Source of the DNA: Halosolutus gelatinilyticus
Lineage (GTDB): Archaea; Halobacteriota; Halobacteria; Halobacteriales; Natrialbaceae
Assembly (NCBI RefSeq): GCF_023028105.1
Contig: NZ_CP095491.1
Coordinates: 1,302,001-1,366,000 of the forward strand
Reading direction: 5' to 3'
DNA length: 64,000 nt
Below, in pieces: positions 45,181 through 64,000 of the stretch (position 1 is the first letter of the stretch; the number at the start of each line of letters is the position of its first letter). A program made the translations under genes and the position numbers. The notes beneath the pieces were generated by a model that was not told where the DNA came from, made no database searches, and saw nothing but the letters and a program-made list of their open reading frames with translations.

Positions 45181-46971
45181 ATGAGACGAGAGCACGTGTT
45201 ACCTAGCAGCGCAGAGACATCACGGCGTCGACTCCTGCAGCTCACCGGCGCGGCCGGCGCGGCGGCGCTCGCGGGTTGTTCCGGCGGCGGCGACGACTCC
45301 GAGTCGACCAACGAGGAGATCACCGGCGACGAACCGATGACCGATCGGACGTTCACCGCGCCGACAACGGTCCTCCCCGGCGACATGCAGTGGAATGCAG
45401 CGAACCAGAGCAACTATCCGGACCGCCCTGGCTTCGTGATCTTCGACCGGCTGGTGTACTTCCGGGCGACGACCGGCGAGTTCGTCGAGGGGGCGCTCGC
45501 CGACTGGGAGGTCGGCGAGGACGCGGCGACGCTGACCCTCCAGGACGACCTGTCGTGGCACAACGGCGAAGACGCCACGGCGGCGGACCTCGAGCGAAAG
45601 CTGCACATCGCACTGTACGACAATCACCCGATCGGGAACTTCACGTCGGTCGAAGACGTCGCGGCCGTCGACGATACGACCGTCGAGGTCGGACTCGAGG
45701 CCGACGTCTCCGAGCCGGTCTTTCTCAACTCGATCCAGAGCATGGAACTGGATATGCCGGCCGAACAGTACCAGGACATCCTCGAGGAGTTCGAGGACGA
45801 TCCCGAGGCGACGCCGCTCACCGATTTCGCGCCCGAGGAACCGATCGGCACGGGCCCGTTCGCGTACGAGAAGGCCGGCGAGCAGGAGCTGATCACCACG
45901 AGGTTCGAGGACTCCCACTGGGCCGACAACGTCAACTTCGCCGAGTACCGGTTCCTGTTCATCGACGGGAACGATCAGGCCTGGCAGGCGCTCCGCGGCG
46001 GATCGGTGGACGCCCTGCACAACATCTTCACGTCGCCGGACATCATCACGTCGTTCCCGGGGTCCGTCGTCGAGGTCCAACAGCCCGCCAACTGGGGGCT
46101 GTCGATCGCGTTCGACCACGATCACGAGCACTTCGGACAGCGCGAGGTTCGGAAGGCGATCGCCCACGCGATCGATCGCGAGATCATCGCGGAGAACTCG
46201 GCGAGCGGCGGCGACGCGAAGGCGCCCGTGAACAAGCCGACCGGCATCGTCGGGAACTTCGACGGCTCGGCCGACGACTGGCTCGACGATCCGGACGCCT
46301 TCGAGGACTACGCCGGGAAGAACACCGATCGAGCCGCCGAACTGCTCGAATCGGCCGGGTTCTCTCGCGAGGACGGCACCTGGGTCGACGAGGACGGTCA
46401 GACGCTCGCCTTCGAGTTCAAGGTGCCCGCCGCCTGGAACGAGTGGGTCGAGGCCGCGATCACGATCAACCAACACCTCCAGGATTTCGGCATCGAGACC
46501 AACCTCATCACCCGGGACGACGGCGTCTACTTCGGACAGGACCTCTACGGCGATCAGGGCTTCGACGCGGCCGGATTCTGGTGGTCCGACGGCTGGACGT
46601 ACCCGTACCACACCCTCGAGTGGAACTTGAACAGCTGGGACGCACAGAACGTCTACAACTACCCCGGGTCGGTCGAGATCCCGCCGATCGGCGAGCCCGA
46701 CGGCGAGCCCGAGACGATCGAGTTCGCCACAGAGTTCGAGGAGCTCGTCGGCATGGACCCCGAGGGAGACGAGACGCGACAGAGGATCAACGAACTGGCG
46801 TGGGCCTTCAACTACGACCTTCCGCAGCTGCCGATCCAGGAGAAGGTAGACCAGTGTTTCGTCTCGACCGAGAACTTCAAAGTCGTCGGCGACTCGGACC
46901 CGGACGCGTCGGTCCAGTACCCGACGACGTTCCTCCCGCGGATCGGGAAGCTCGTGGCGAAAGCGGAGTAG
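45181..46971 (+). CDS. ABC importer substrate-binding lipoprotein, family 5 (oligopeptide/oligosaccharide type)
   Basis: The 596-residue protein has a twin-arginine lipoprotein signal: SRRRLLQLTGAAGAAALAGC, with lipobox Cys33. The mature part is a family 5 solute-binding protein: TTVLPGDMQWN, EPIGTGPFAYEKAG, QREVRKAIAHAIDREIIAEN are typical. Family 5 receptors bind peptides, nickel or sugars; in Thermotoga and Pyrococcus related proteins bind cello- and laminari-oligosaccharides. Within this glucan locus, beta-1,3-gluco-oligosaccharides are the likeliest ligand (inference). It heads a five-gene operon. Confidence 0.88.
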   Translation: MRREHVLPSSAETSRRRLLQLTGAAGAAALAGCSGGGDDSESTNEEITGDEPMTDRTFTAPTTVLPGDMQWNAANQSNYPDRPGFVIFDRLVYFRATTGEFVEGALADWEVGEDAATLTLQDDLSWHNGEDATAADLERKLHIALYDNHPIGNFTSVEDVAAVDDTTVEVGLEADVSEPVFLNSIQSMELDMPAEQYQDILEEFEDDPEATPLTDFAPEEPIGTGPFAYEKAGEQELITTRFEDSHWADNVNFAEYRFLFIDGNDQAWQALRGGSVDALHNIFTSPDIITSFPGSVVEVQQPANWGLSIAFDHDHEHFGQREVRKAIAHAIDREIIAENSASGGDAKAPVNKPTGIVGNFDGSADDWLDDPDAFEDYAGKNTDRAAELLESAGFSREDGTWVDEDGQTLAFEFKVPAAWNEWVEAAITINQHLQDFGIETNLITRDDGVYFGQDLYGDQGFDAAGFWWSDGWTYPYHTLEWNLNSWDAQNVYNYPGSVEIPPIGEPDGEPETIEFATEFEELVGMDPEGDETRQRINELAWAFNYDLPQLPIQEKVDQCFVSTENFKVVGDSDPDASVQYPTTFLPRIGKLVAKAE

Positions 46972-46989
46972 CGGGGACGAGTCTCACAC

Positions 46990-48015
46990 ATGCAACGATA
47001 CTACATCGAACGCACGCTACAGGCGATCGTCACGGTGGTTTCGGTGATGAGCCTCGCCTTTTTTCTCATTCGGTTGATGCCCGGCAACCCCGCTGACGCC
47101 TATCGCGCGGAGCTCATTCAGAACAATCCTCAGCTGTCCCAGGCCGAGATCGACCACCGCGTCGAACGCAAACTCAACGTGATCCCGGACGCGCCGCTAC
47201 ACGAACAGTACGTGAACTACGTGACGGGGCTGCTTCGGGGCGACCTCGGCGAGTCGATCAACGAGGGCGTTCCGGTGTCCGAGATCATCGCGGAGGCGCT
47301 CCCCTGGACGATCTTCACGATGTCGATCGCGCTGTTGCTCTCCTTCGCGATCGGCATCTCGCTCGGCGCCCTGATGGCGTACAAGGAGGGGAGTTCCTTC
47401 GACAACGGATTCTCCGTGCTCTCGATCCTGTGCAACTCGATCCCGAACTACGTCGTCGGCATCCTGCTGATCTGGTTTCTCGGCCACCGGTTCGAACTGT
47501 TCCCCACCGGCGGACGGCACTCGACCGAGATGGACCGAACGGTGGAGCTACTGGCGCCGGTCGAGACCCTCGCGTTCCTCGGTGACGCGCTCTGGCACGC
47601 GGCGCTGTTGATCCTGTCGTACGCGATCGTCGCGGCCGGCGGGTGGGCCCTGCGAATGCGGGGCAACAGCATCCAGGTGCTCGGCGAGGACTACCTGCGG
47701 GTCGCGCGCCTCCGCGGGCTCTCGGAGCGGCGGATCGCGACGCGGTACGTGGGTCGAAACGCGGTGCTGCCGCTGTACACGGCGCTGCTGATCGCGATCG
47801 GCTTCGCGCTCGGCGGCAGCGTCATCCTCGAGCAGGTGTTCACGTACCCCGGCGTCGGCTACTACATGATCGAGGGGCTGGAGGCCCGCGACTACCCGCT
47901 CATGATGGGCGTCTTCCTCGTGATGACCGTCGCGGTCGTGATCGGCGTCTACGTCGCCGACCTCACGTACGGGCTGATCGATCCGCGGGCGCAGACGCGA
48001 GGGGGTGAGCACTGA
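46990..48015 (+). CDS. ABC importer permease, DppB/OppB family
   Basis: A 341-residue membrane protein with the DppB layout: first helix near residue 12-30, a periplasmic-side loop (AYRAELIQNNPQLSQAEIDH), then five helices. The EAA-type coupling loop reads DYLRVARLRGLSERRIATRYVGRN, which contacts the ATPases. It ends YGLIDPRAQTR, typical of this family. The start is 18 bases after the receptor gene, and its stop overlaps the next start in TGATG. Confidence 0.92.
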   Translation: MQRYYIERTLQAIVTVVSVMSLAFFLIRLMPGNPADAYRAELIQNNPQLSQAEIDHRVERKLNVIPDAPLHEQYVNYVTGLLRGDLGESINEGVPVSEIIAEALPWTIFTMSIALLLSFAIGISLGALMAYKEGSSFDNGFSVLSILCNSIPNYVVGILLIWFLGHRFELFPTGGRHSTEMDRTVELLAPVETLAFLGDALWHAALLILSYAIVAAGGWALRMRGNSIQVLGEDYLRVARLRGLSERRIATRYVGRNAVLPLYTALLIAIGFALGGSVILEQVFTYPGVGYYMIEGLEARDYPLMMGVFLVMTVAVVIGVYVADLTYGLIDPRAQTRGGEH

Positions 48016-49052
48016 TGAGCGAGCGAACGGAACCGCTGCACGCGATCGACGGGAGCGACGCGTTCGAAGCCGTCTCCGACAGGACGCTGACCCGAAAGGA
48101 GCGATACCGGCGACTGTTCGATCGGTGGGTCCTCGCCCCCGGCCGGATCGTCTGGAGCGAGCGCCGCGCTCGCGTCGGCGCGGCGATCATCCTGCTGTAC
48201 GTGGCCGTCGGTCTGCTCGGTCCGCGACTCTACACGGAACCGCGGACCAACCAGGGGCCGCGATCGCTCGCGCCGCTCGCGGAGGGGCTGGCCTACCCCC
48301 TCGGCACCGACAACCTCGGCCGCGACATCCTCGCTCAGCTGATCCACGCGACGCCGTCGATGCTGCAGATGATCATGGCCGGCGGCCTGTTCGTGACGGT
48401 CATGGGCGTCACCGTCGGCACGGTCTCGGGGTACGCCGGCGGCCGGACCGACCGGATCCTCTCGCTGCTCACGGACATCGTGATGACCATCCCGGGACTC
48501 CCGCTGATCGTCATCCTGGCCGCGCTGCTCGCGCCCCAGAACCCGATCGTGACGGGCCTCATCCTGACGGTCAACGTCTGGGCCGGCCTCGCCAGGGAGA
48601 TCCGATCGCAGGTCCTCTCGATCAGCCGCCACTCCTACGTCGAGGCGTCCCAGGCGATGGGACTCTCGACGCCGGGGATCATCGTCAAAGACATCCTTCC
48701 AAACATCATGCCGTACGTACTGATCACGTTCGTTAACGCCGCGAGACAGGTCATCTTCGCATCGGTCGGACTGTACTTCCTGGGCGTGTTGCCCTACGAC
48801 AGCGTCGTCAACTGGGGCGTCATGATCGATCAGTCGGTCAGCGGCGGCGCGATGCACGTCGTCTCGCTGGCCCACTGGCTGATCGCGCCGCTGGCGACGA
48901 TCACGCTCCTGTCGTTCGGGCTGATCCTGTTCTCGCAGGGCACCGATCGAATGTTCAATCCGCGCGTCCGTGCCCGACACTCTTCGACGACCGATTCGGG
49001 CGACGAACCGACCGACGGAGACGTCGCGACGACCGGGGGTGGGATCCGATGA
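48015..49052 (+). CDS. ABC importer permease, DppC/OppC family
   Basis: The 345-residue partner permease has the DppC-type N-terminal helix (AAIILLYVAVGLLG) and the GTDNLGRDIL motif of the family. The EAA loop is SRHSYVEASQAMGLSTPGIIVKD. The C-terminal end is extended by an acidic, disordered stretch (DSGDEPTDGDVATTGGG). It pairs with the preceding DppB-type protein to form the translocation channel. The start overlaps the previous stop by one base and its own stop overlaps the next start by four (ATGA). Confidence 0.92.
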   Translation: MSERTEPLHAIDGSDAFEAVSDRTLTRKERYRRLFDRWVLAPGRIVWSERRARVGAAIILLYVAVGLLGPRLYTEPRTNQGPRSLAPLAEGLAYPLGTDNLGRDILAQLIHATPSMLQMIMAGGLFVTVMGVTVGTVSGYAGGRTDRILSLLTDIVMTIPGLPLIVILAALLAPQNPIVTGLILTVNVWAGLAREIRSQVLSISRHSYVEASQAMGLSTPGIIVKDILPNIMPYVLITFVNAARQVIFASVGLYFLGVLPYDSVVNWGVMIDQSVSGGAMHVVSLAHWLIAPLATITLLSFGLILFSQGTDRMFNPRVRARHSSTTDSGDEPTDGDVATTGGGIR

Positions 49053-50107
49053 GCGGCCACTCCGGCGCCGCGGCCGCCGCGGCGACCGATCCGCGGTCCG
49101 ATCACGTCCTCAGCTGTCGGGACCTCTCCGTCGAGTTCCACATGGATCGCGGGACGTCGACGGTTCTCAACGGGATGGACATCGACATCGAGCGCAACGA
49201 GATCATCGGCGTCGTCGGCGAATCCGGCTCCGGAAAGTCGATGTTCGCGTCCGCGCTGCTGGACGCCGTCGTCGAACCCGGCATCACGTCGGGGACGGTC
49301 ACCTACCGGCCGTCGGACGGCGAGCCGATCGACGTCCTCGATCTCACGGACGATCGACTCCGACAGCTTCGCTGGGAGGAGATCTCGATGGTATTCCAGG
49401 GTGCCCTCTCGTCGTTCAACCCGACGCTGAAGATCCGCGGACACTTCGTGGAGACGCTCGAAGCGCACGGCTACGACGTTACGACGGGGATGGAACGCAC
49501 CCGCGAACTCCTCTCGGACCTGTACCTCGATCCCGATCGGGTGCTCGGTTCGTACCCGCACGAACTCTCCGGCGGGATGAAACAGCGCGCGCTCATCGCG
49601 CTCTCGCTCGTCCTCGAACCGGAGGTGCTCGTCATGGACGAGCCGACCGCCGCGCTCGACCTGCTGATGCAGCGCTCGATCGTCAGCCTGCTGTCGGACC
49701 TCCGGGACAAGTACGACCTGACGATGGTGTTCATCACGCACGACCTGCCGCTGGTGACGAAACTCGCGGACCGCATCGGCGTCCTCTACGCGTTCGAACT
49801 CGCGGAGGTCGGCCGGACCAAGGAGATCCTCCGGTCCCCGAAACATCCCTACACGCGAGCGCTGCTGAACTCGACGCCCGACATCGAGTCGCCCCTCGAG
49901 GAGATGCGGCCGATCGAAGGCTCGGCGCCCGACCCCGTCAACGTTCCGTCGGGCTGTCCGTACCACGAGCGGTGCCCCCTGGCGACCGGCGACTGTGCGA
50001 CGGTTAAGCCCGCGATGGAACCGGTCAGCGAGACCCACGACGTCGCCTGCCACCACTGGGATCGCGTCGACGACGAAATCGAACTGACCACGGAGGTGGG
50101 GCGATGA
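49049..50107 (+). CDS. ABC importer ATPase, DppD/OppD family
   Basis: The 352-residue ATPase carries Walker A GESGSGKS, signature LSGGMKQRALIAL, Walker B VLVMDEPTAALD and the switch His in VFITHDLPLV. Its C-terminal oligopeptide-transporter domain has the cysteine pattern GCPYHERCPLATGDC, which binds a [4Fe-4S] cluster in some relatives. A short Ala-rich N-terminal extension precedes the core. ATGA overlap links it with both neighbours, so it is translated in a coupled manner. Confidence 0.92.
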   Translation: MSGHSGAAAAAATDPRSDHVLSCRDLSVEFHMDRGTSTVLNGMDIDIERNEIIGVVGESGSGKSMFASALLDAVVEPGITSGTVTYRPSDGEPIDVLDLTDDRLRQLRWEEISMVFQGALSSFNPTLKIRGHFVETLEAHGYDVTTGMERTRELLSDLYLDPDRVLGSYPHELSGGMKQRALIALSLVLEPEVLVMDEPTAALDLLMQRSIVSLLSDLRDKYDLTMVFITHDLPLVTKLADRIGVLYAFELAEVGRTKEILRSPKHPYTRALLNSTPDIESPLEEMRPIEGSAPDPVNVPSGCPYHERCPLATGDCATVKPAMEPVSETHDVACHHWDRVDDEIELTTEVGR

Positions 50108-51186
50108 GCGCCGACGAGCCCGTCGTCTCGATGGAGGGCGTCGACGTCCACTTCGAGAAAGAGGGCGGCCTCAACCCCTTCGCGGACCCGCAGACGGTGC
50201 AGGCGGTCGACGGCGTCGACCTCGAGATCCCCGAGAACGACGTCGTCGCGATCGTCGGCGAGTCCGGCAGCGGAAAGACCACGCTGGGCAAGGCGGCCGT
50301 CGGCCTGCAGCGGCCGACCGGCGGCACCGTCAAATACCGGGAACAGGACGTCTGGAAGGCGAAAAAGCGGTTCTCGAAGCCGTCGATTCCGTACGACGAC
50401 ATCCGGCGATCGCTCCAGATCATCCACCAGGACCCCGGCTCGTCGCTGAACCCGCACCGGACCGTGGAGGCGTCGCTCGCCGAACCGCTGAAGAAGTACC
50501 AGACCGATCTCGGACCCGAGGACCGCGAGGCGCGGATCCTCGCGATGCTCGAGCGCGTCGGCATGACGCCGCCGCACGACTACGCCCGGCGGTACCCCCA
50601 CCAGCTGTCCGGCGGCGAGAAACAGCGGGTCGCGCTGGTCCGAGCGCTACTGATGAACCCCGATCTCATCCTGGCCGACGAGGCCGTCAGCGCGCTCGAC
50701 GTCTCGCTGCGCGTCGAGGTGATGGACCTCATGCTCGACTTACAAGAGCAGTTCGACACGTCCTTCCTCTTCATCTCGCACGACCTCTCGAACGCGCGCT
50801 ACCTGGCCGAGCACGCCGGCGGTCGACTCGGCGTGATGTACCTCGGCGAACTCGTCGAACTCGGCACCGCGGAGGAGGTTCTTCGGAACCCGCAACACCC
50901 CTATACGAAGGTGTTGAAGTGGGCCACGCCATCGCTCAGCCCGGACGAGGGCGCGGCGGAACCGCCGGTCCGGGAGATCGACATCCCCGACCCGGTCGAC
51001 CCGCCGTCGGGCTGTCGGTTCCACACGCGGTGTCCCTACGCGACCGAGCACTGCCGCGAGGCGACGCCCGATCGGCGCTCGATCGGCGCGGGCACGCACC
51101 GGGCGTCCTGCTTCCGCCTGGACGAGAGCAGCGACTACTGGCGCAGCGAGCCGCTCGAGGGCGCCAGCCTGGATGCGGACGAGTAG
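50104..51186 (+). CDS. ABC importer ATPase, DppF/OppF family
   Basis: The second 360-residue ATPase has Walker A GESGSGKTTLG, the Q-loop region IIHQDPGSSLNPHRTVE, signature LSGGEKQRVALVRAL, Walker B LILADEAVSALDVS and switch SHDLSNARYL. The C-terminal motif GCRFHTRCPYATEHC matches that of the DppD partner. Two different ATPases forming a heterodimer are the rule for this family. It is the last gene of the importer operon; 216 bases separate it from the convergent GH16 gene. Confidence 0.92.
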   Translation: MSADEPVVSMEGVDVHFEKEGGLNPFADPQTVQAVDGVDLEIPENDVVAIVGESGSGKTTLGKAAVGLQRPTGGTVKYREQDVWKAKKRFSKPSIPYDDIRRSLQIIHQDPGSSLNPHRTVEASLAEPLKKYQTDLGPEDREARILAMLERVGMTPPHDYARRYPHQLSGGEKQRVALVRALLMNPDLILADEAVSALDVSLRVEVMDLMLDLQEQFDTSFLFISHDLSNARYLAEHAGGRLGVMYLGELVELGTAEEVLRNPQHPYTKVLKWATPSLSPDEGAAEPPVREIDIPDPVDPPSGCRFHTRCPYATEHCREATPDRRSIGAGTHRASCFRLDESSDYWRSEPLEGASLDADE

Positions 51187-51402: not shown

Positions 51403-52815
51403 TCAGGCTTCCTGGAACAGTCGGACGTAGTCGATCTCCATCCGCTGGGGGAAGGTCGTCGTCGCGTCGGGCGGGCCGGGCCACTCGCCGCCGACGGCGC
51501 AGTTGAGGAGCAGCCAGAACGGGCCGTCATCGAACACCCACTGGTGGCCCTGGCTCTCGACGTCCTCGCGAGTGACCGTGAAGAAGTGCTCGCCGTCGAC
51601 GTACCACTTGATCACCCCGGGGTCCCACACCACGGAGAACACGTGGTAGTCGTCGGCGAAGACGCCGGTATCGAGGTGGTAGCCGCCGCCGATGGAGCCG
51701 CCGCCGGAGTAGCCGGGGCCGTGGACGGTGCCGTGGACCGCGTCAGGCTCGTTCCCGACCAGCTCCATGATGTCGATCTCGCCGTCGTCGGGCCAGGCCG
51801 TGTCGCCGGCCGGCAGCATCCAGTGGGCCGGCCACATCCCCTGATCCTGGACGAGTTTCGATCGGAAGTCGACGCGGCCGTACTGGAACTCCAGGTTGCC
51901 CTCGGTCACCAGCTTCCCGGAGGTGTAGTCGTACGTACCGTGTTCGTCGGAGACCTGCTCCTCGCGGATCTCGACGACCAGGTTGCTGTTCTCGACCCAC
52001 CGGTTGTCGGCGCTGTAGTACTGCTCCTCGCCGTTCCCCCAGCCGGGGATGCCGTAGTCGTGGCCGTTGCCCTCCTGGTCCTCCCAGACGGTCGTGTCGA
52101 GCGAGTCGCCGTCGAAGTGGTCGGCGAAGAACTGGTTCCACGATCGGCCGTCGAGGTTCCCCGGGTCGTCGGGATACGTTTCGCCGCCGTCGTCGTCCGA
52201 GGCGCGCAACTCGAAGTAGTTGAGGTTCCAATCGCCGGTCTCCGCGTGGACGCAGACGGCGTGCTGGCCGGCGGTTAGGTCGACCGTGCCGGCGGAGACG
52301 GTCGTCCAGTTCTGCCAGTCGCCGGTTCCGCCGAAGCCGATCGGGCCGGTGACGTCGGTGCCGTCGATTTCGACCCGGAACTGACCCCCGCTCGCGGCGG
52401 AGGCGACCCGGAGCTCCAGGTCATAGGTGTCATCGCGCTGGACGTCGACAGTGTACTCCAGCCACTCGCCGGCCTCGATCCAGCCGACGTTGTACCCGCC
52501 TTCGGTCGCGGATTCGATGTCGACGTCGTCGTCGCGGTACGCGCCGCCGGCGTTCCCCGCGGTGGCGTCGTGATAGGCGATGCCTTCACCGCCGACGTCG
52601 TAGTCCTCGGCCTCGACGCGGCCGGGGACGGTCCAGGCCGATCCGCCGTAGGGCTGTTGACCGGACGAGCCGCCGCACGCCGCCGCGCTCGTGGCCGAAC
52701 TCGCGAGGCCAACGCCGGACGCGGCGACCGCTGCCGCCCCCATAAATCGCCTTCGCAGTACGTTCTCTCCGCTCGATTCGTCTGTTGTCCGTTCCGATTG
52801 CTGCTTGTCTGTCAT
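51403..52815 (-). CDS. Secreted CBM6-GH16 endo-beta-1,3-glucanase (laminarinase-like)
   Basis: The 470-residue protein has a Tat signal (VLRRRFMGAAAVAASGVGLA, cut near SAAA), then a CBM6 carbohydrate-binding module (about residues 63-185, from PGRVEAEDYDVGGEGIAYHD to TGDWNLNYFELR). The GH16 catalytic domain (about 205-470) has the signature GEIDIMELVG with nucleophile Glu346, Asp348 and acid/base Glu351. The sequence ASN-free loop and QYYSADNRWVENSNLVVEI are laminarinase-like, so beta-1,3-glucan is the probable substrate. It works outside the cell. A motif shared with GH3 lies upstream. Confidence 0.9.
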   Translation of the reverse strand: MTDKQQSERTTDESSGENVLRRRFMGAAAVAASGVGLASSATSAAACGGSSGQQPYGGSAWTVPGRVEAEDYDVGGEGIAYHDATAGNAGGAYRDDDVDIESATEGGYNVGWIEAGEWLEYTVDVQRDDTYDLELRVASAASGGQFRVEIDGTDVTGPIGFGGTGDWQNWTTVSAGTVDLTAGQHAVCVHAETGDWNLNYFELRASDDDGGETYPDDPGNLDGRSWNQFFADHFDGDSLDTTVWEDQEGNGHDYGIPGWGNGEEQYYSADNRWVENSNLVVEIREEQVSDEHGTYDYTSGKLVTEGNLEFQYGRVDFRSKLVQDQGMWPAHWMLPAGDTAWPDDGEIDIMELVGNEPDAVHGTVHGPGYSGGGSIGGGYHLDTGVFADDYHVFSVVWDPGVIKWYVDGEHFFTVTREDVESQGHQWVFDDGPFWLLLNCAVGGEWPGPPDATTTFPQRMEIDYVRLFQEA

Positions 52816-53617: not shown

Positions 53618-56377
53618 ATGACGGACGACTCCTGCAGGACGGACGAGCGGTATCGATCATCCCCCGACGAAACGGGCAGCGATAGCTACGACCGACGGTG
53701 GTTCCTCGAGATGGTCGGCGTCGGGACTGCCGGCCTCGTTGCCGGCGGGGCGACGGGGACGGCGGCCGCGGCTCCGGACGGCGAGTCGCCGGCACTCGAC
53801 CTCGTCGACGGCGATTCGGCGATCGAACAGCCGACGCACACGGCCGTCGGCGACGGGCGGTGGAACGATCCGACGACCTGGAACGACGGCGTCCCTGACG
53901 ACGACGCCAGGGTGGCGATTCCGTCGGGCGTCACGGTGACGCTGGGCGGCGAAACTGCGCGGCTCCACTGGCTCCGGGTGGACGGCACGTACCGCGTCGA
54001 CCCGGCCGCGGACTCCCACCTCCGCGCGGGCACGATCGTCTCGACAGCGGAAAGTACCGTCGAGATCGGCACGGCGGCCGACCCGGTGGGCCCGAACGCC
54101 ACCGCGACGGTGACGTTCGCGGATCGCGGGGCGATCGACGAGGGCTGGGACCCCGATCGCGTGAGCCGGGGACTGCTGGCGGGCGGCGACCTCGAGATCG
54201 TCGGCGCGGCGAAGACGGCCCACACGACTCTCGCCACGCACCCCCGTGCGGGAGACGGCCACCTCGAACTCGAGACGTCGCCGACGAACTGGCGGCCCGG
54301 CGACGCGCTGGTCGTCCCCGGCGTCTCGGCGCGGGAGAACCAGGACGAGGAAGTGACCGTCGCGAGCGTCAGCGGCTCGACGGTCGCCATCGAGGAGACC
54401 CTGGTACACGATCACGCCCCGCCGTCCGGGTACGACCTGGACTCGTACGTCCTGAACCTGGATCGGTCCGTCCGGCTCCGATCGGAAACCACCGAAATCA
54501 AGCGTCGCGGACACGTGATGGTGATGTCGCCGGGGTCCACGATCCGCCACGCCGGATTCTACGACCTCGGCCGAACCGACAAGACGCGGCGGTTCTCCGA
54601 TCCCCTGTACGGCGGCTCCGAGCTCGAACTGGACCCCACCGAGAACGTCAAATCCCGGTACTCGCTGCACTTCCACAGAACGGGGGCCGACTACGACCTC
54701 GATCCCCACGACGTCACCGGCTGCGTGGTCGCGCCCCGGACCGACGGCAACGGGTGGACGGGCAGCCCGGGGTGGGGGTTCACGAACCACCAGAGCTACG
54801 CCGCGATCGAGGACTGCATCAGCTACAAGGTCGTCGGGACGGGCTTTATGACCGAGACCGGCATCGAGATCGGACACTTCCGGAACAACTTCGCGCTCCG
54901 TTCGGCGGGCAGCGGCGACGATCCCGACTGGCGGGAGTTCATCGAGAACTTCAACCACGAGCGCAACATCGACGATTACGGTCACGGCGGCCACGGCTTC
55001 TGGCTGCACGGGCCGCTCGTCTCCGTCGAGAACAACGTCGCCGCGGGCCACCGGAATTTCGCGTTCGCCTACTGGACGCGGGCGCTCGGGGACTACGTCC
55101 CCGACGCGCTCCCCTTCGACGACCCTCGCGAGCAGAACGCGCCGTTCGACGAGATGACCGAGGCGGATCTCGGCCGCCACCGCGGCAACGTTCCGAACGT
55201 CCCCGCGTCGTACGCCGACGACAAGCCCTCCGAGGAGCACAACGTCGCGCCCGGCACCGGCGGCCCCAGCGTCGCCGAGTTCGCCCATGCCACCTACGAG
55301 GCCGACGACGGCACCGTCTACGTCGACGAGGGGTCGATCCCGTTCCGGAACGTCGACAACGTCGCCTTCGCCTCGGGCGCCGGCATCGACGTCATGAACG
55401 TCATGCGAGGCGCGTACGACGGGGAAATCGAAGGCGAAACCGAGTACTACGCCCGCATCGAGAATTTCACCGGCTGGAACCTCCGAGGACGGGACGGCGA
55501 GGACGAACTCCCGCACGCGAGCGTCGAGGGATTCGGCGGCGTCCGCGGGGTCGATCTCGGCATCGCCCTCCGCTACTCCGGGTACGCGACGGTGACGAAC
55601 TCGCGGCTGATCGGCGACGGGCGGGGCGTCGGCATCAGCCACAACATGCGCATGAACCACCTCGTCGTCGAAGACACCTCGATCGAAGGGTTCGAGGACG
55701 GGATCGGAGCGCTGAATCCGGGGCGAACCGACGTCAGTGGGTGCGACTTCGACAACGCGAACACCGACGTGTACGTAAGCGGCGACGACATCTTCGGTGG
55801 CGACGTGACCGTCGATCTGTGGGACATCGACGCCGACGAGACGGTCCGACTCGATCCGGGAGACGGCATGGATCAGGACCTCTCGCTCGACGGCGCCGCC
55901 CTGTACTACGAGGAGACCGCACCGCCCGAGGCCGTGGCGGATCCGCGAGTCGACGGCGGGTTGCTCGTCGACGACGGGTCGGACGATGACGAGAACCAGC
56001 CCGGCCTTCCGGTGACGATCGACGCGGTGGACTACGCCGATTCGACGGGCGACTACGAGATCGAGGGGAACGGCGAAGGCGGCGAATCGATCGGCTGGAT
56101 CGACGGCGGTAACTGGTGGGAGTACGAGCCGGCGATCGACGGCGACGTCGCCGCCGACGTCGTGGTGAACGTGTCGTCGCCGTACGACGACACGGCGTTT
56201 CACGTGACGGTCGACGGCCAGGACGTCTCGGGCACCGTCGACGTGCCTAACACCGGCGGCTGGCACGACTGGACCGACGTCACCGCCGCCGCTGACGTCG
56301 CGATCGGTCCCGACAGCACGATCCGCGTCGTCGCCGAGACCGGCTCCTGGAACGTCAACCGCCTCGAGTTGCGGTAG
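53618..56377 (+). CDS. Secreted G8 / parallel beta-helix / CBM6 protein, putative new glycan-active enzyme
   Basis: The 919-residue protein has a Tat signal (DRRWFLEMVGVGTAGLVAGG), then a G8 domain (about residues 75-190) with the defining DGRWNDPTTWNDGVPDDDA and VAIPSGVTVTLGG. The centre is a right-handed parallel beta-helix containing SRYSLHFHRTG, matching the (Y)(P/S)(I/L)HFH motif of PKHD1L1/CEMIP-type proteins, and a His/Gly-rich strand DYGHGGHGFWLHGP. A linker leads to a C-terminal CBM6 (about 795-919) nearly matching that of the GH81 enzyme. CEMIP in animals depolymerises hyaluronan, so a polysaccharide-cleaving role is plausible. Start at the ATG at 53618. Confidence 0.85.
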   Translation: MTDDSCRTDERYRSSPDETGSDSYDRRWFLEMVGVGTAGLVAGGATGTAAAAPDGESPALDLVDGDSAIEQPTHTAVGDGRWNDPTTWNDGVPDDDARVAIPSGVTVTLGGETARLHWLRVDGTYRVDPAADSHLRAGTIVSTAESTVEIGTAADPVGPNATATVTFADRGAIDEGWDPDRVSRGLLAGGDLEIVGAAKTAHTTLATHPRAGDGHLELETSPTNWRPGDALVVPGVSARENQDEEVTVASVSGSTVAIEETLVHDHAPPSGYDLDSYVLNLDRSVRLRSETTEIKRRGHVMVMSPGSTIRHAGFYDLGRTDKTRRFSDPLYGGSELELDPTENVKSRYSLHFHRTGADYDLDPHDVTGCVVAPRTDGNGWTGSPGWGFTNHQSYAAIEDCISYKVVGTGFMTETGIEIGHFRNNFALRSAGSGDDPDWREFIENFNHERNIDDYGHGGHGFWLHGPLVSVENNVAAGHRNFAFAYWTRALGDYVPDALPFDDPREQNAPFDEMTEADLGRHRGNVPNVPASYADDKPSEEHNVAPGTGGPSVAEFAHATYEADDGTVYVDEGSIPFRNVDNVAFASGAGIDVMNVMRGAYDGEIEGETEYYARIENFTGWNLRGRDGEDELPHASVEGFGGVRGVDLGIALRYSGYATVTNSRLIGDGRGVGISHNMRMNHLVVEDTSIEGFEDGIGALNPGRTDVSGCDFDNANTDVYVSGDDIFGGDVTVDLWDIDADETVRLDPGDGMDQDLSLDGAALYYEETAPPEAVADPRVDGGLLVDDGSDDDENQPGLPVTIDAVDYADSTGDYEIEGNGEGGESIGWIDGGNWWEYEPAIDGDVAADVVVNVSSPYDDTAFHVTVDGQDVSGTVDVPNTGGWHDWTDVTAAADVAIGPDSTIRVVAETGSWNVNRLELR

Positions 56378-56512
56378 CTTCCGCCCGCGATACCGGTTGC
56401 GCTCGCCAGCCGCCGTCGGATTCCGGCTCCCGAATCGCCGCCGATCTCGACGCCGTCGCCTCGAACCGAACGGACGACTTTGCCCCGTGATGCCATACCA
56501 CAATAATTATTA

Positions 56513-56671: not shown

Positions 56672-59600
56672 ATGACACGCGACAACGACACTGACGACGA
56701 CGCGTTCGGCCTTCCACGGCGGACGTACTTACAGGGCATCGCTGCGGCGACCGCGATCGGTGCGAGCGTCGACGCCGCGTCGGCGGCCGTCGACGACTCG
56801 ACGATCGTGTCGGTCGGCGAGGGGAGTTACACGACCGAGATCCCGAGCGGCTACGACTACGCGGAGCCGATGACCGCGGCGGACGTCTTCACGACGGACG
56901 CCGAGGGCCCCCCGCTGCCGTCGAACGACTGGTGGAGCGGCCTCCACCTCGGGTACAACCCCTACGACGAGTACACGTACAGCCACTCCAACGGCGCGAC
57001 CGTCGCACTGCCGTACTACGGATTTCCGTCGGACATCGGGCTTTCGGTCCAGATTCCGGACACGTGGAAGGGCGAGTACCTGGACCAGCGCCTGGAGACC
57101 TCGAAGCTCGCCAAGATGGACGACGACGTGATCCCGCGGCTGTTCGTCGGCCACACGGCCGTCTCCACCTACGAGGACGTCCGCGTCGACGGCTACGGCG
57201 ACTGGAACGTCCGCGCCCGCTGGGGCGACGGAACCGCGACCAGCATGGACGTGACGATGGTGCGGGGCTCGCCGTTCATCTTCGTCGAGTACGAGGGCGG
57301 CGGCGCCGAAATCGAGCTGTACGAGTACTATCAGGACGACGGCGAGGGCGGCGACGACGCCGATCCGCTGGAGGAGGGTCGGATCGACGTCTTCGCCGAT
57401 CGGGGGAACGTTCTCGGCGTGACCCTGTACCCCGACGAGGACAACGACGAACTCGTCGACCAGCCGAAGTCGATCCAGCACTTCGGGCTGTACGCGCCTG
57501 AGGGCGCGACCTGGGACGGCGTCGGGACGGCGACCGTCTCCTCGCAGCTCGGTGGACAGGACTACCTGACCGTGGCCGTCCTCCCCGACGACGACCCGGC
57601 GACGCTGGACGAGTTCGGCGACTACGCCTACAACGTCGTTCGGGACACGACGGTCGACTGGGAGTACCGCGAGACCGACGCCAGCGGCGAGCCGGTCTCC
57701 GAAGTCGAGACGACGTTCGCGTTCGACATCGAGGAACGTCCCGAGAGCGCTGCCAGCGGGACGCTGGCCGGCCTGTTTCCCCACCAGTGGAAGCACTCCG
57801 ACGCTCCGCTGACCGACATCGAGTTCTGGTCGCCGAAAGGGACGATGAAGGTGTTCGCCGGTGACTCGTTCCGGACGACGCTGCGGTATCCCGGCATCCT
57901 CCCGTTCATGCCCGACGCGGGCACGGGCGACGACGCCCAGCTCGAACAGTACGTCGAGAACCTGGTCAACGACTACGACCCCTACGAGGCACAGGGCGTG
58001 CCGAACGAAGCCTACTGGGCCGGAAAGGACCTGATGCGCAACGCCGCGGCGATTCCGATCGCCGAGCAGCTCGGCCGCGACGACGCCACGCAGTTCTTCC
58101 GGGACGCCGTTCAGAAGCGACTGGAGTGTTTCTTCGACGTGGAGACGAACGAGTGGGAGGTCGGCGGCGAGACGTACGCGACCGAAGACGGTCAGGAGGT
58201 CACGTACTACCACGACGATCTGGGTATCTTCCAGACCTATCCCGGCGGCGAGTTCGGCGCCGTCGAGGCTATCAACGACCACCACCTACAGTTCGGCTAC
58301 TTCATCTACGTCGCTAGCGAAATCGCTCGACAGAACCCTCAGTGGGCCCAGGAGGACCAGTACGGCGGGATCGTCGAGCTGATGATCCGCGAGTACGCCA
58401 ACTGGGAGCGCCCGGACAAGTCCGCGCCGCAGGATCCCGCCACGAACCCCAAGGACGCGTTCCCGTTCCTGCGGACGTTCAGTCCGTACATCGGCCACTC
58501 CTACGCGGGCGGCATCCAGGGTAACGACTGGGGCGCCAACCAGGAATCGGCCTCCGAAGCGGTCGCGTCCTACGCGGCGATGATCCGCTGGGGTGAGATC
58601 ACCGGCAACGAGGAGCTGCGCGACGCCGGAATTTACCTCTATACCCACGAGATTCACGCCATGTGGGAGTACTGGTTCGACGAGGACGACGACTCCGTCC
58701 CGGACGACCTGGCGATCGACGTCGAGCCGCCCGGGTGGCGGATGGCGCTGCCCGGCGGCCAACTCGACTACAGTCCGATGGCCTGGGACGTCGGCTACTG
58801 GCGCCACGTCTACTGGGACATCGCCGACGCCATCGAACTGTACGGCATCAACTGGATCCCGACGGGGGGTCACTCGTTCTTCCTCGGGATGAACCAGGAG
58901 TACGCGCAGACGAACTGGGACAACCTGGTCGATGCGCGGGCGCACCTGGCTGACGGGTACGACCACATCGACATCCCGGACCCCGAGCGGGACTTCATGG
59001 ACGGCTGGCAGCAGGCCGCCGTCGTCTACCGGTCCATGTTCGACCCGGCCGGCGCGATCGACCTGCTCGACAGCGAACTGCCCATGGCGCCCGAGGGGAA
59101 CTCCTCGGCGTTCGTCTACCAATTCGCCCACGCCATGAACGGCGTGGGGACGCCCGACCACACGGTCGTCGCGGACGCGCCGTTCTACCAGGTGTTCGAG
59201 GACGGCGGCGAGCGGACCTACGTCGCCTACAACGCGAGCGACTCGCCCGTCACGGTGTCGTTCAGCGACGGCGCCTCGATAAGCGTGCCGGCGAACGCGA
59301 TGGCAACGTCCGACGGCGACGGCGGTAGCGGAGACACGACCCCGCCCACCGCCCCGTCGAACCTGACGACGACCGGGACGACCGAAACGTCGATTTCGAT
59401 CGAGTGGAATGCCGCCTCGGACGCCGGCGGTTCCGGCCTGCTGAACTACGCCGTCTACGTCGACGGCTCGATCGAGCAGACGACCGGCGCCGGCACGACG
59501 AGCGCCACCCTGACCGGCCTGGACGCGGACACGGAGTACGAAATCTACGTGACCGCACAGGACGGCGCGGGCAACGAGTCAGCCGCCTCCAACGCGGTCA

Positions 59601-60493
59601 GGCCGAGCACCGATCGGGACGACGGCGGCTCCGGCGGCGACGTCGTGACGGCGATCAACTGCGCCGGCGACGCCTACGCGACGAGCGACGGCACGGAGTT
59701 CCTCGCCGACCAGTACAACAGCAGCGGCGGCGAACTCACCGTCGGCGACGAGATCGCCGGCACGGACGACGATCCGATCTATCAAAGCGTCCGCGAGGGC
59801 GAGTTCGAGTACGCCATCCCCGTCGAGGACGGCAGCTACGAGGTGACGATCCACTTCGCCGAGCTGTGGTTCTCCGAGGCGGGCGATCGGCTACAGAGCG
59901 TCCACGCCGAGGGGACCGAGCGAATCACAGAGTATGACATCGTCGCCGAGGCCGGCGACGGTCTCACGGCGGTCCGGGAGACGTTCTCCGTCGACGTCAC
60001 CGGCGGCGAACTGAACCTGTTCTTCGAGGCGGTGCAGGACCAGGCGCACGTCGCGGCCATCGAGGTCGTCGACCCCGACGGGAGCGGGGACGACAGCAAC
60101 GACGGTGACGGCGAGCCGGAGCTACCCCAATCGGTCTCGTCGGTCGACTACGACGACGCCGAGGGCGACTTCGACACCGAGGACAACGGCGAGGGCGGCC
60201 AGTCGATCGGTTGGATCGACGCCGGCGACTGGTGGGAGTACGACGCCCCCATCGACACCGGCGGCTCCGTCGACCTGACCGCGCGGGTGTCCTCGCCGTA
60301 CGACGGGACGGCGTTCCGCGTCGAGGTCGACGGTCAGAACGTCTCGGGCACCGTCGATGTACCTAACACGGGCGGCTGGCACGACTGGACCACCGTGACC
60401 GCGGCGACCGACGTGACGGTCGACGCCGGCAGCACCATCCGGGTGGTTTCGGAATCCAACTCTTGGAACTTCGACGAATTGCGCCTAGAGTGA
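56672..60493 (+). CDS. Secreted multidomain GH81 endo-beta-1,3-glucanase
   Basis: The 1273-residue enzyme has a Tat signal (PRRTYLQGIAAATAIGAS), then a GH81 catalytic region (about residues 45-880). Landmarks are PLPSNDWWSGLHLGYN, VRGSPFIFVEYEGG, NDHHLQFGYFIYVA and NQESASEAVASYAAM, where Glu625 and Glu629 sit in the family's acidic cluster. An FN3 domain (about 892-982), a malectin-like domain (about 990-1145, AINCAGDAYATSDG ... NLFFEAVQDQAHVAAIEVVD in part) and a CBM6 (about 1155-1273) follow. GH81 enzymes cut insoluble and soluble beta-1,3-glucan at internal bonds. The malectin and CBM6 modules would hold the enzyme on the polymer. Confidence 0.93.
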   Translation: MTRDNDTDDDAFGLPRRTYLQGIAAATAIGASVDAASAAVDDSTIVSVGEGSYTTEIPSGYDYAEPMTAADVFTTDAEGPPLPSNDWWSGLHLGYNPYDEYTYSHSNGATVALPYYGFPSDIGLSVQIPDTWKGEYLDQRLETSKLAKMDDDVIPRLFVGHTAVSTYEDVRVDGYGDWNVRARWGDGTATSMDVTMVRGSPFIFVEYEGGGAEIELYEYYQDDGEGGDDADPLEEGRIDVFADRGNVLGVTLYPDEDNDELVDQPKSIQHFGLYAPEGATWDGVGTATVSSQLGGQDYLTVAVLPDDDPATLDEFGDYAYNVVRDTTVDWEYRETDASGEPVSEVETTFAFDIEERPESAASGTLAGLFPHQWKHSDAPLTDIEFWSPKGTMKVFAGDSFRTTLRYPGILPFMPDAGTGDDAQLEQYVENLVNDYDPYEAQGVPNEAYWAGKDLMRNAAAIPIAEQLGRDDATQFFRDAVQKRLECFFDVETNEWEVGGETYATEDGQEVTYYHDDLGIFQTYPGGEFGAVEAINDHHLQFGYFIYVASEIARQNPQWAQEDQYGGIVELMIREYANWERPDKSAPQDPATNPKDAFPFLRTFSPYIGHSYAGGIQGNDWGANQESASEAVASYAAMIRWGEITGNEELRDAGIYLYTHEIHAMWEYWFDEDDDSVPDDLAIDVEPPGWRMALPGGQLDYSPMAWDVGYWRHVYWDIADAIELYGINWIPTGGHSFFLGMNQEYAQTNWDNLVDARAHLADGYDHIDIPDPERDFMDGWQQAAVVYRSMFDPAGAIDLLDSELPMAPEGNSSAFVYQFAHAMNGVGTPDHTVVADAPFYQVFEDGGERTYVAYNASDSPVTVSFSDGASISVPANAMATSDGDGGSGDTTPPTAPSNLTTTGTTETSISIEWNAASDAGGSGLLNYAVYVDGSIEQTTGAGTTSATLTGLDADTEYEIYVTAQDGAGNESAASNAVRPSTDRDDGGSGGDVVTAINCAGDAYATSDGTEFLADQYNSSGGELTVGDEIAGTDDDPIYQSVREGEFEYAIPVEDGSYEVTIHFAELWFSEAGDRLQSVHAEGTERITEYDIVAEAGDGLTAVRETFSVDVTGGELNLFFEAVQDQAHVAAIEVVDPDGSGDDSNDGDGEPELPQSVSSVDYDDAEGDFDTEDNGEGGQSIGWIDAGDWWEYDAPIDTGGSVDLTARVSSPYDGTAFRVEVDGQNVSGTVDVPNTGGWHDWTTVTAATDVTVDAGSTIRVVSESNSWNFDELRLE

Positions 60494-60505: not shown

Positions 60506-61642
60506 TCAGTCGTCCTCCGATGCGCGCTCGGCGATCGGCGCGTCGTCGGCGTCGACGCCGCTCGCACTCGTCGGCTCGTCGAACTCGATGGCCTCGAGGG
60601 AGATCCGAACCGCCTCGACGTCCTCGTAGACGGCGCCCCAGCCGCCGACGCTGTATCGATCGTCCTCGGCGACGACCTCGAGTTGCAGGAACCCGGCCAG
60701 CTCCTCGAACGACGGACGGCCGTCGACGCGGTAGACGCCCGGGTACGCGATGTCGGTGACGATCCCGGTGATCTCGCAGGGGTCGTTCGTGTCGACCCAC
60801 GTGCCCTCGATCGTCACCGCGACGTTCGCGCCGTCCGCCCACAGCGGCGCCACGTCGCGGACGAACTCCTCGAGAGTCATGTAGACGCACGGCGGATCGG
60901 TGTCCTCGTAGACGGTCTCCCAGAGGGCCCACACGCCCGTCTGAAAGTACCAGTGGAAGATAAACGAGAGGATGTAGTCGTCGATCAGGACGCCGAACGG
61001 CCTGTTGGCCCAGTCGTTCGGCGTGAAACACGTCTGTGTTCGGTCCGCGATGAGCAGGAACGGGCCAGGGATTCGGCAGGCGCGAAGCTCCGTCACCGTT
61101 TCGTCGAGATCGATGTCCGCGAGCTCGTCCGTCAGATCGTCGCCGTAGACGGCCACGTTCGTGACGACGCCGCGATCGCAGGCCTCCTGCAGGGCGTTCG
61201 TCAGGGCGCGGAATTGGTCGACGGTCGCGGACAGCTCGATGAAGCTCTCCGCGTCCCGGATCAAGTCGCGCGCCCGATCGACGACCGTCTCCTCGTGCTT
61301 GACGACGCTGACCGTGTGGTCGTTGACCGCCGGCTGCTCCCATCGGTCCTCGACCGCGTCCGCGGCCCTGTTCATCAGCGTCCCCCGCGATCGCAGCTGG
61401 CTGAGCACTTTGATCGGCTCCTTGGGGCGGGCGTGGAGCGTGTCCTGGTCGAACGTCTCGACGTAATCCATCCGCTCGAGCGCGCGGAGGGTGTCGTAGA
61501 TCTGGGACACCGGGACGGAACACTGGTTTGCGACTTCCACGGCCGGCGTCATTCCCTGCTCGAGTAGCGTGATGTAGGCGTCGGCCTGGTACGCGGTCAA
61601 CCCCGCGTCCTGGAGCGCGTCTTGGAGACGGTCCCTGTCCAT
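60506..61642 (-). CDS. TrmB-family sugar-responsive transcriptional regulator
   Basis: The 378-residue protein has an N-terminal winged helix (LQDALQDAGLTAYQADAYIT, PVSQIYDTLRALERMDYVE) and a coiled linker. A phospholipase D-like middle domain contains RALTNALQEACDRGV, and the C-terminal TrmB sugar-binding domain reads VAVTIEGTWVDTNDPCEITG. TrmB proteins bind maltose, glucose or other sugars and switch between repression and activation. Flanked on both sides by GH81 genes, it is the obvious regulator of this locus. It converges on the first GH81 gene, whose stop lies 13 bases away. Confidence 0.9.
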   Translation of the reverse strand: MDRDRLQDALQDAGLTAYQADAYITLLEQGMTPAVEVANQCSVPVSQIYDTLRALERMDYVETFDQDTLHARPKEPIKVLSQLRSRGTLMNRAADAVEDRWEQPAVNDHTVSVVKHEETVVDRARDLIRDAESFIELSATVDQFRALTNALQEACDRGVVTNVAVYGDDLTDELADIDLDETVTELRACRIPGPFLLIADRTQTCFTPNDWANRPFGVLIDDYILSFIFHWYFQTGVWALWETVYEDTDPPCVYMTLEEFVRDVAPLWADGANVAVTIEGTWVDTNDPCEITGIVTDIAYPGVYRVDGRPSFEELAGFLQLEVVAEDDRYSVGGWGAVYEDVEAVRISLEAIEFDEPTSASGVDADDAPIAERASEDD

Positions 61643-61892: not shown

Positions 61893-64000
61893 TCAGTACT
61901 GGTGGGTGAACGCGTCGGAGACGTACTGGGTGCCGCCGCCGTCGTCCCAGACGAACCGGACGTCGATCGAGGAGCCGTCGCCGGCGGCGTCGCGAGTGTG
62001 AAGGTGGGTGCCTCCGTCGGGCTCCATGCGGTAGCCGATCCAACCGCCGCCGTCGTCGAACTGCACGTCGGCCCAGTCGGCGGCGTTGTTCGGATCGAAC
62101 TCCCAGTGGCTGGTGTCTCCGTCATCGACGACGGTCGCGGTCCAGCCGTCGCCGGCGTCGCCGGAGTAGGTGTTCCCGTCGCCGTTGTTGCCGTCATCTC
62201 CGTCGTCGCCATCGTCTCCGTCGTCCTCGCCGGTGGACGTCGCCATCGAGTTCGCGGGGACGTACAGCTCCGCGCCGTCGGAGAACGTCACGGTCGTCCC
62301 CGAGTCGCCGGCGTTGTAGGCGACGTAGGTCCGCTGCGTCCCGTCGCTGAATACCTGGTAAAACGGCGTGTCCGCGGTGACGGTACCGTCCGGCGCGCCC
62401 ATCTCGTGGAGGTTGTAGATCCAGTGGTAGGTCTGGGCGCGCGTGTGGCCGGGTTCGACCTCGTAACTGCCCTTTCGGGCCTCGAACTTGTCGACGGCGT
62501 CCTGTCCGTCCGAGAACGCGCGGTACATCCACATGAGGTCCGGCCAGTAGTCGAACTCGTCGGTCCCCTTGTTCGCGACGAGTTCGTCATAGTTCGCCGC
62601 GGGGGCCGCGTCGTCCCAGCCGAGGTGCAGGGAGTAGCCGGCGAACGGCAGCCAGTTGATCCCGTGGATGGCCTCCTCGTCCGCGGTCCACCAGGTGGCG
62701 TAGGCGTAGCCGTTGCCCCACACCATGCCGGCGGTGTCGTAGTCCCACGAGTCGGGGTGGTTCGTGCCGTCGGCGTCGAACCAGTACTCGTGGACGGCGT
62801 GGAGTTCGGTCGTGTACAGGTAGACGCCGAAATCGCGCAGCTCCTCGTTTCCGGTGTACTCGCTCCACTCGACGATCGCCGCGTACGCGTTGAGCGCCTC
62901 CGAGGAGGACTCCTGGTTGTTGCCGTCGGCGAACTTCGCGCCGCCGCCCTCCGCCCAGGAGTGCCCGCAGTAGGGGCTGAAGTTCCGCGCGAACGGGAAC
63001 ATGTCGTCCCCGCGGCTCGGATTGGCGTAGTCGCGGATCAAGTGTTCGACCATGCCGCCCCACTCGGACTCGGCGGCCCACCCGGGGTTCGTGCGCGCGA
63101 TCTCGGCGGCGGCGCGCACGTAGTAGCCGTAGTGAAAGTGGTGATCGGACAGCGACGACGCCGAGCCGTGGCTCTCGGGATAGCCGAGCAGCGTTCCCCA
63201 ATTGTCGTCGTAGTAGAACAGCTCCTCGGCGCCGCTCTCGGCCTGGAGCCACCGCTCGAGGTGGTCCCGCAGCGAGCCGACGATCGCGTCGCGCTTGTCG
63301 GGCAGGTCGAACTGCTCGGCCAGCGCCTTGCTCTCGACCAACCGGCCGTAGTCCTTGCCGACGTTGTACGTGTCGGGTCCCTCGATCGCGGTGTCGATCT
63401 CCTGGATGTACCCCCGCAGTTCGGCGGCGTCGTAGCTCCCCTCGTCGGGCAGGAACGGGAGCATGCCGCCGTAGTCGTAGGTCGTCGAGAACGACGGCCC
63501 GGCGACGGCGCGCATCTCCCCGCGCGGGGACGTGTACGTCGCCTCCAGCGTCTCGTCGTCGCTGTGTTTCCACTGGTGCGGGTGCAACGCGGTGATCGTT
63601 CCCGCGACCGCGCTCTCGGGTTTGTCGTCGGTCTCGAAGCTGAACGCGGTGCGCACCTCGGCGTTCGCCTCGTCGTACTCCCAGTCGACCGTCGTGTCGA
63701 CGACGAAGTTGTACGCGTACTCCTCGAACGTGTCGAGGGCGGCGGTCTCGGGCAGGGCGGCGATCGAGCAGTACCCCGCGCCGCCGAGGTCGTTGACGAG
63801 CGTATCGGTGCCGACGCCCGACCAACTCGTCCCTGACGGAGCGAACAGTCCGTAGTGGTGAGCGTCGATCGTGACGCCGAGGACGTTCCCCTCGTCGGCC
63901 CAGACCTCCGGCGCGTCGTCGAACGCGATCGCTGCGCCGCCGCCCTCGTACTCGCAGAACACGAACGGCGAGCCCTGCGCGAACGTCGCGCGCAGCGTCG
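61893..64000 (-). CDS. Second GH81 endo-beta-1,3-glucanase, N-terminus beyond the window
   Basis: The frame is open from 61893 to the window end, so about 702 C-terminal residues are seen and the signal peptide is missing. It reads FAQGSPFVFCEYEGGGAA, then LHPHQWKHSD, LSDHHFHYGYYVRAAAEIAR and GNNQESSSEALNAYAA, the GH81 acidic motif, and ends its catalytic part like its neighbour (VPANSMATS). A Asp/Gly linker (DDGDDGDDGDDGNN) leads to a roughly 90-residue domain with WEFDPNNAADW and VSDAFTHQY, resembling CBM56 beta-1,3-glucan-binding modules (inference). It is a divergent paralogue of the 56672 enzyme with different accessory modules. Confidence 0.9.
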   Translation of the reverse strand, partial: TLRATFAQGSPFVFCEYEGGGAAIAFDDAPEVWADEGNVLGVTIDAHHYGLFAPSGTSWSGVGTDTLVNDLGGAGYCSIAALPETAALDTFEEYAYNFVVDTTVDWEYDEANAEVRTAFSFETDDKPESAVAGTITALHPHQWKHSDDETLEATYTSPRGEMRAVAGPSFSTTYDYGGMLPFLPDEGSYDAAELRGYIQEIDTAIEGPDTYNVGKDYGRLVESKALAEQFDLPDKRDAIVGSLRDHLERWLQAESGAEELFYYDDNWGTLLGYPESHGSASSLSDHHFHYGYYVRAAAEIARTNPGWAAESEWGGMVEHLIRDYANPSRGDDMFPFARNFSPYCGHSWAEGGGAKFADGNNQESSSEALNAYAAIVEWSEYTGNEELRDFGVYLYTTELHAVHEYWFDADGTNHPDSWDYDTAGMVWGNGYAYATWWTADEEAIHGINWLPFAGYSLHLGWDDAAPAANYDELVANKGTDEFDYWPDLMWMYRAFSDGQDAVDKFEARKGSYEVEPGHTRAQTYHWIYNLHEMGAPDGTVTADTPFYQVFSDGTQRTYVAYNAGDSGTTVTFSDGAELYVPANSMATSTGEDDGDDGDDGDDGNNGDGNTYSGDAGDGWTATVVDDGDTSHWEFDPNNAADWADVQFDDGGGWIGYRMEPDGGTHLHTRDAAGDGSSIDVRFVWDDGGGTQYVSDAFTHQY

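Follow-up and report, generated by a model that had tools for sequence, protein, structure and literature searches.

What is a protein related to human TMEM2 doing among the β-1,3-glucan degradation genes of the haloarchaeon Halosolutus gelatinilyticus? The gene in question lies in a 64,000-nucleotide stretch of the chromosome, which we analysed as a whole and refer to as the window, and encodes a G8 domain, a parallel β-helix and a family 6 carbohydrate-binding module (CBM6). We favour the reading, at roughly even odds (about 0.5), that this focal protein is a Tat-exported, chain-cleaving polysaccharide-active enzyme of the G8/CEMIP β-helix superfamily, adapted to a β-1,3-glucan locus.

The open reading frame extends from an ATG at 53618 to a stop codon at 56377 and encodes 919 residues, exactly as the first-pass annotation had placed it, with an alternative GTG start possible at 53609. 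The protein is acidic (pI 4.2) and under purifying selection relative to its Natrialba asiatica orthologue, which together identify the frame as a real gene. Pfam searches bore out the G8, β-helix and CBM6 content proposed earlier. G8 (PF10162) scored 44.5 bits against a cut-off of 22.9, and CBM_6 (PF03422; 8.8e-13) scored 49.1 bits against 28.9. Downstream of G8, the CEMIP_beta-hel profile (PF24606; 5e-6) matched residues 346-487, with a borderline score in the window search (26.9 bits; cut-off 27.3) and one exceeding the cut-off in the whole-genome search (30.1 bits); the same profile matched all 26 haloarchaeal homologues at 0.001. The previously suggested Tat signal corresponds to a Tat-like DRRWFL sequence, whose R26 and R27 showed no variation in an alignment of the 26 haloarchaeal homologues, and the two motifs singled out in that annotation, LHFH at residues 350-353 and the His-rich strand at residues 455-466, are both present. 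The features of the gene are as follows:

53618..56377, plus strand: G8/parallel β-helix/CBM6 protein, 919 aa (open reading frame, translation, Pfam, constraint)
53618..53773, plus strand: Tat-like signal region, DRRWFL, with twin Arg at aa 26-27 (sequence inspection; R26/R27 invariance)
53876..54235, plus strand: G8 domain, aa 87-206 (PF10162, 1.7e-11; aligns to TMEM2 chain residues 41-164)
54263..55087, plus strand: conserved β-helix core, aa 216-490, CEMIP_beta-hel (PF24606; stretches 2 and 3 of the TMEM2 profile match; lowest pN/pS)
55355..55897, plus strand: C-terminal β-helix coils, aa 580-760 (weak Beta_helix match at aa 648-721; model strands with pLDDT of about 41-92)
56024..56368, plus strand: CBM6, aa 803-917 (PF03422, sequence comparison with the GH81 CBM6, Foldseek)

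No IPT domain was found with Pfam, no membrane span was noted by inspection outside the signal region, and a search for viral relatives returned none. Two long antisense frames, one of 948 aa over the G8 gene (53657-56503, minus strand) and one of 731 aa over the second GH81 gene, GH81b (61641-63836, plus strand; without a Pfam match), are shadows of GC-rich coding sequence.

The surroundings also agree with the first-pass annotation, which had placed the gene in a glucan locus: from 42739 to the end of the window, the DNA constitutes a β-1,3-glucan utilisation locus, in which the G8 gene is surrounded by the following genes:

42739..44979, minus strand: GH3 β-glucosidase (profile matches)
45181..51186, plus strand: Opp-type ABC transporter of five genes, comprising SBP_bac_5, two permeases and two ATPases (Pfam)
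51403..52815, minus strand: CBM6 plus GH16, divergently transcribed from the G8 gene (Pfam)
56672..60493, plus strand: GH81 with fn3, malectin and CBM6 (Pfam)
60506..61642, minus strand: TrmB regulator (profile matches)
61893..63962, minus strand: GH81 with CBM56, GH81b (profile matches)

Growth of haloarchaea on curdlan and laminarin has been credited to genes including GH81, GH16 and GH3 (PMC9726719). The genome carries a second GH16 gene outside the glucan locus (G000:C1:998315-998887). A haloarchaeal TrmB operator pattern, TACT-N7/8-AGTA, had 0 matches in the window, so that this search lends no support to co-regulation by TrmB.

G8/helix relatives, counted from search matches, occur in 21 of the 392 genomes of the order. 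Those closest to the focal protein are encoded by Natrialba asiatica (G246; 78% identity) and by genomes G353 and G315 (54% each); all three adjoin GH16 and lie near TrmB, and two of the three are also near GH81b and Opp. Wherever a glucan locus contains an intact G8 gene, a GH16 gene flanks it. Across all 21 G8-bearing genomes, GH16 is present anywhere in five, and adjoins the G8 gene in four of these. A universal G8-GH16 partnership in haloarchaea is ruled out by the 16 genomes without GH16, whose G8 genes have mostly unrelated neighbours. The genome that contains the window encodes two more G8/β-helix proteins, neither of them in a glucan locus (G000:C1:2415136-2418495 and G000:C1:16302-19592). 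The first of these (2.416 Mb) shares 56% identity with the focal protein and forms one clade with the four glucan-locus G8 genes (support 100/100), within which it nests beside the G353/G315 pair, so that the locus genes alone do not make up one side of a branch. Haloarchaea also encode G8 proteins of 725 aa on the major tree branch that does not hold the focal protein (L062:7812-9989 and L063:7455-9632); these are minimal, carry no accessory domains and score far higher on CEMIP_beta-hel (L062: 9.6e-39).

Beyond the haloarchaea, relatives were found on eight plasmid records, seven of Roseobacter type and one from Croceibacterium. All seven Roseobacter-type loci lie among polysaccharide biosynthesis genes, in exopolysaccharide clusters, and in five of them (L074, L086, L087, L088 and L089) one or two GH16 genes are located within 10 kb of the G8 gene. 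Because GH16 genes are common in exopolysaccharide clusters, this proximity is only suggestive. The G8-GH16 partnership holds for the glucan-locus genes and for most Roseobacter loci. On the Croceibacterium plasmid, two CEMIP-like G8 proteins (L077:907-3624 and L077:8923-11502) flank a TonB receptor gene; one of them matches CEMIP_beta-hel at 6.9e-86, and the pair groups with human TMEM2 in the tree.

Within glucan loci, the G8 gene is an accessory and dispensable part. Four sister loci (G389, G394, G288 and G393) contain Opp and TrmB; in three of them the stretch read also includes GH3, and in none does it include GH16 or a G8 gene. A GH81 match with an in-frame TAG was observed in a genome of the same genus (G389:C5:7256-9031). 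Two further loci document decay: in G279, a remnant of 122 codons (L060:9000-9368) retains the N-terminus together with residues 505 to about 567 and 866 to 918, its two internal deletions both being in frame, and G371 no longer has the G8 gene. Both loci also show a decayed Opp operon, with GH3, GH16, GH81b and TrmB still in place. With the remnant counted, the G8 gene occurs in five of the six loci with GH16 and in none of the four without (one-sided Fisher 0.024, uncorrected for kinship). Such losses, together with the absence from the four sister loci, are what one would expect of a locus passenger without current function that is heading for loss. We nevertheless consider this explanation very improbable for the gene in the window, as its reading frame is intact, pN/pS of its helix core relative to the N. 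asiatica orthologue is 0.17, within the range of the GH16, GH81 and Opp genes, and every residue that is identical in all 27 aligned sequences (see below) has been kept.

The enzyme reading gains from the way in which conservation is distributed along the protein. The C-terminal module differs between members, being CBM6 in the window and G246, fn3 plus CBM6 in G353, and malectin in G315, the 2.416-Mb paralogue giving no more than a very weak C-terminal match to CBM56. Modules swapped on a constant core suggest that the core is the working part and that the module serves to aim it, and the gradient of constraint agrees with this view, with pN/pS relative to the N. asiatica orthologue rising from 0.17 in the helix core to 0.22 in G8 and 0.46 in the CBM. 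As for the direction of aim, the focal CBM6 shares 63% protein and 76% DNA identity with the CBM6 of the adjacent GH81 (56672..60493), its Foldseek matches include the CBM6 of laminarinase LamC (5fui) and the β-1,3-glucan-binding 1w9s, and a sequence search likewise placed β-1,3-glucan-binding CBM6s among its best matches. The CBM6 in common with GH81 points to β-1,3-glucan itself or to the material around it. The first-pass suggestion of action on a glucan decoration drew no direct support from these results.

This module bears directly on a second explanation, namely that the protein is an enzyme for another polymer (uronate-containing, sulfated or the cell's own surface polymer) that is merely co-located with glucan genes. 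The idea draws on the Roseobacter relatives, whose exopolysaccharide biosynthesis clusters contain sulfotransferases, on other haloarchaeal G8 genes, which have no glucan genes nearby, on hyaluronan as the animal substrate named in the literature, and on the uronic-polymer lyases found among parallel β-helices. We regard it as unlikely, given that the focal CBM6 is closest to β-1,3-glucan-binding CBM6s and common to the neighbouring GH81, that the locus context recurs in four genomes, that no uronate genes were seen in the annotated part of the window, and that the isolations of PMC9726719 yielded no haloarchaea that grow on uronic polysaccharides.

To what extent does kinship with TMEM2 inform function? 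A profile built from the 26 haloarchaeal homologues and searched against PDB sequences matched only human TMEM2 (8c6i; 8e-28), in three colinear stretches. The AlphaFold model has a mean pLDDT of 74, with values that mostly exceed 90 in G8 and the initial coils and are mostly 84-97 in the core except for loops, and its best PDB match in Foldseek is again TMEM2 (E 9.6e-15, TM 0.45 by query length), followed by β-helix tailspikes and then by a capsule lyase with a β-helix. The CEMIP/TMEM2 kinship proposed by the first-pass annotation is thereby supported, and structure prediction, the check that it had suggested, yielded a predicted parallel β-helix fold with TMEM2 as top match. In the tree, TMEM2 groups with the Croceibacterium G8 proteins, and the other major branch unites the focal protein with haloarchaea and Roseobacter. 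CEMIP (KIAA1199/HYBID) and TMEM2/CEMIP2 are animal proteins reported as hyaluronidases, an activity that is disputed (PMC10206443, PMC10474455): purified human TMEM2 was inactive in one study (PMC10206443) and active in another (PMC10474455). Homology alone therefore cannot settle the activity of the focal protein, and for prokaryotic G8 family members no activity was known in the literature searched. The TMEM2 structure paper was unable to assign an active site; mutation of R265, D273 and D286 is reported to reduce activity, and all three residues lie in a lectin-like insertion (PMC10206443). No counterpart of this insertion (TMEM2 chain 165-335) was found in the profile alignment of the haloarchaeal homologues.

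Residue conservation nonetheless delineates a candidate active site. In an alignment of 27 sequences from haloarchaea, Roseobacter, Croceibacterium and human TMEM2, residues D229, E244, H266, R283, H299, Y348, H351, H353, H391, E413 and E417 are identical in all 27, and R347 in 26. With TMEM2 numbered as chain position + 82 (23 tag residues, then residue 106), the equivalents of D229 to H299 are D431, E446, H471, R490 and H519, and those of R347 to E417 are R546, Y547, H550, H552, H585, E608 and E612. The candidate residues, and the His-rich strand that had been proposed alongside them, map as follows:

54512..54514, plus strand: H299 (TMEM2 H519), candidate active-site residue (27/27; starts model strand 299-302)
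54656..54676, plus strand: RYSLHFH with R347, Y348, H351 and H353, candidate active site (invariance; model strand 350-356)
54788..54790, plus strand: H391 (TMEM2 H585), candidate active-site residue (27/27; model strand 388-398)
54854..54868, plus strand: E413 and E417 (TMEM2 E608, E612), candidates (27/27; after strand 410-412, before 418-422)
54980..55015, plus strand: GHGGHGFWLHGP, aa 455-466, His-rich strand (only G-H456 kept across the haloarchaeal branch)

H351 and H353 alternate with the hydrophobic L350 and F352 and should therefore face outward. Combining the secondary structure of the model with the alignment, we infer that H299, H351, H353, H391 and E413 lie on one sheet, in successive coils, at mid-helix. 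Most β-helix enzymes carry their active site in this region. It is also here that Niu et al. observed two obstructing loops in TMEM2, at 627-662 and 733-756 (PMC10206443). The H-F-H motif might bind a metal; the Ni2+ of the TMEM2 crystal was left out of this evidence, as the text searched does not say where it lies. Of the two motifs that the first-pass annotation had put forward as a site, LHFH is supported as a likely site, since H351 and H353 are each identical in all 27 sequences including TMEM2. The GHGGHG motif of the His-rich strand is rejected as a metal or catalytic site, because even close relatives do not keep its second and third His. At the second position G353 and G315 have V or I and others have Y, H464 at the third is replaced by Q in most of the haloarchaeal homologues, and neither TMEM2 nor the CEMIP-like bacterial proteins have the motif.

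Alternatively, the protein might be a non-catalytic glucan binder whose β-helix and CBM6 keep soluble or insoluble glucan on the surface of the cell or make it available to GH16 and GH81. No catalytic GH or PL profile was matched in Pfam or NCBIfam, all glucan-locus members looked at carry a binding module, the gene is accessory, and among animal G8 proteins TMEM2 has a disputed activity (PMC10206443) and PKHD1L1 is described as a stereocilia coat protein (PMC6707252). However, a scaffold should hardly require five His, four acidic residues, an Arg and a Tyr to be invariant in all three domains of life, and constraint is stronger on the helix than on the CBM, which leaves a purely binding role the main alternative, though a rather unlikely one.

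We retain the enzyme reading, under which the focal protein is probably a depolymerase directed to β-1,3-glucan material. The protein would be exported by the Tat pathway and anchored to β-1,3-glucan by its C-terminal CBM6, and a single continuous β-helix, of which G8 would form the N-terminal part as in TMEM2, would bind the chain along one face. The cluster of H299, R347, Y348, H351, H353, H391, E413 and E417 would then cleave the chain, most likely in endo fashion, ahead of or together with GH16, and the products, or the glucan laid bare, would pass to GH16, GH81, the Opp transporter and GH3. The analysis establishes the domains, the TMEM2 homology and fold similarity, the locus, the swapping of modules, the constraint on the core and the residue invariance; that the protein is catalytic, that the clustered residues act together and that the substrate is β-1,3-glucan or a polymer mixed with it is what we infer. 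Counted against this reading are the location of the residues that affect TMEM2 activity in an insertion absent here, the dispensability of the gene, the 16 G8-bearing genomes (of 21) without GH16 and the dispute over TMEM2. A broader and more tentative proposal is that the G8/CEMIP superfamily might be an ancient, unclassified polysaccharide-cleaving family with a shared mid-helix His/Glu/Arg/Tyr site (TMEM2 H519, R546, Y547, H550, H552, H585, E608 and E612), whose archaeal member would act on β-1,3-glucan without the lectin insertion to which activity in animals has been ascribed until now (PMC10206443).

Bacterial G8 proteins are already annotated as such. A G8 protein combining a Tat signal, CBM6 and a β-1,3-glucan locus was not found in the literature searched, nor was the cross-domain residue set, and a search on archaeal G8 proteins turned up only an unrelated flagellate study. 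For CEMIP and TMEM2, both enzyme status and active-site location are openly disputed; the comparison of archaeal, bacterial and human sequences narrows the candidates for the site to a dozen polar residues, mostly in one stretch of the helix and directly mutable, and the archaeal locus supplies the family with a testable substrate context, β-1,3-glucan. If the focal protein cleaves polysaccharide, it would point to a new enzyme family that includes human proteins.

Set against known systems, the focal protein resembles CEMIP and TMEM2 in architecture, with G8 beginning one β-helix, colinear homology across G8 and helix, and, in TMEM2, the identical elements GH-x-M, RY-x-x-H-F-H, H, E-x-G-x-E, FW and AAG. 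It differs in lacking the lectin-like insertion of TMEM2 (about 247-417, holding R265, D273 and D286), in carrying CBM6 where no C-terminal lectin-like domain is recognised, and in its Tat-like export signal, its β-1,3-glucan locus and its place on a different major tree branch. Fibrocystin (PKHD1) and PKHD1L1 likewise have G8 followed by parallel β-helix repeats (PMC13424714), but are membrane proteins of very large size that contain IPT and PA14 domains and for which catalysis is not established. The Roseobacter proteins, annotated as G8 domain-containing, PA14 or LamG, share the major tree branch of the focal protein, an SPGWG-x-x-x-H element and a frequent GH16 nearby, whereas their PA14, RTX repeats and Big_9, and their biosynthetic rather than catabolic surroundings, set them apart. 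Finally, the CBM6 modules of LamC (5fui) and BH0236 (1w9s) are like the focal module in both sequence and fold, yet they are joined to GH16 or another glycosidase, whereas here the CBM6 is joined to a G8 β-helix.
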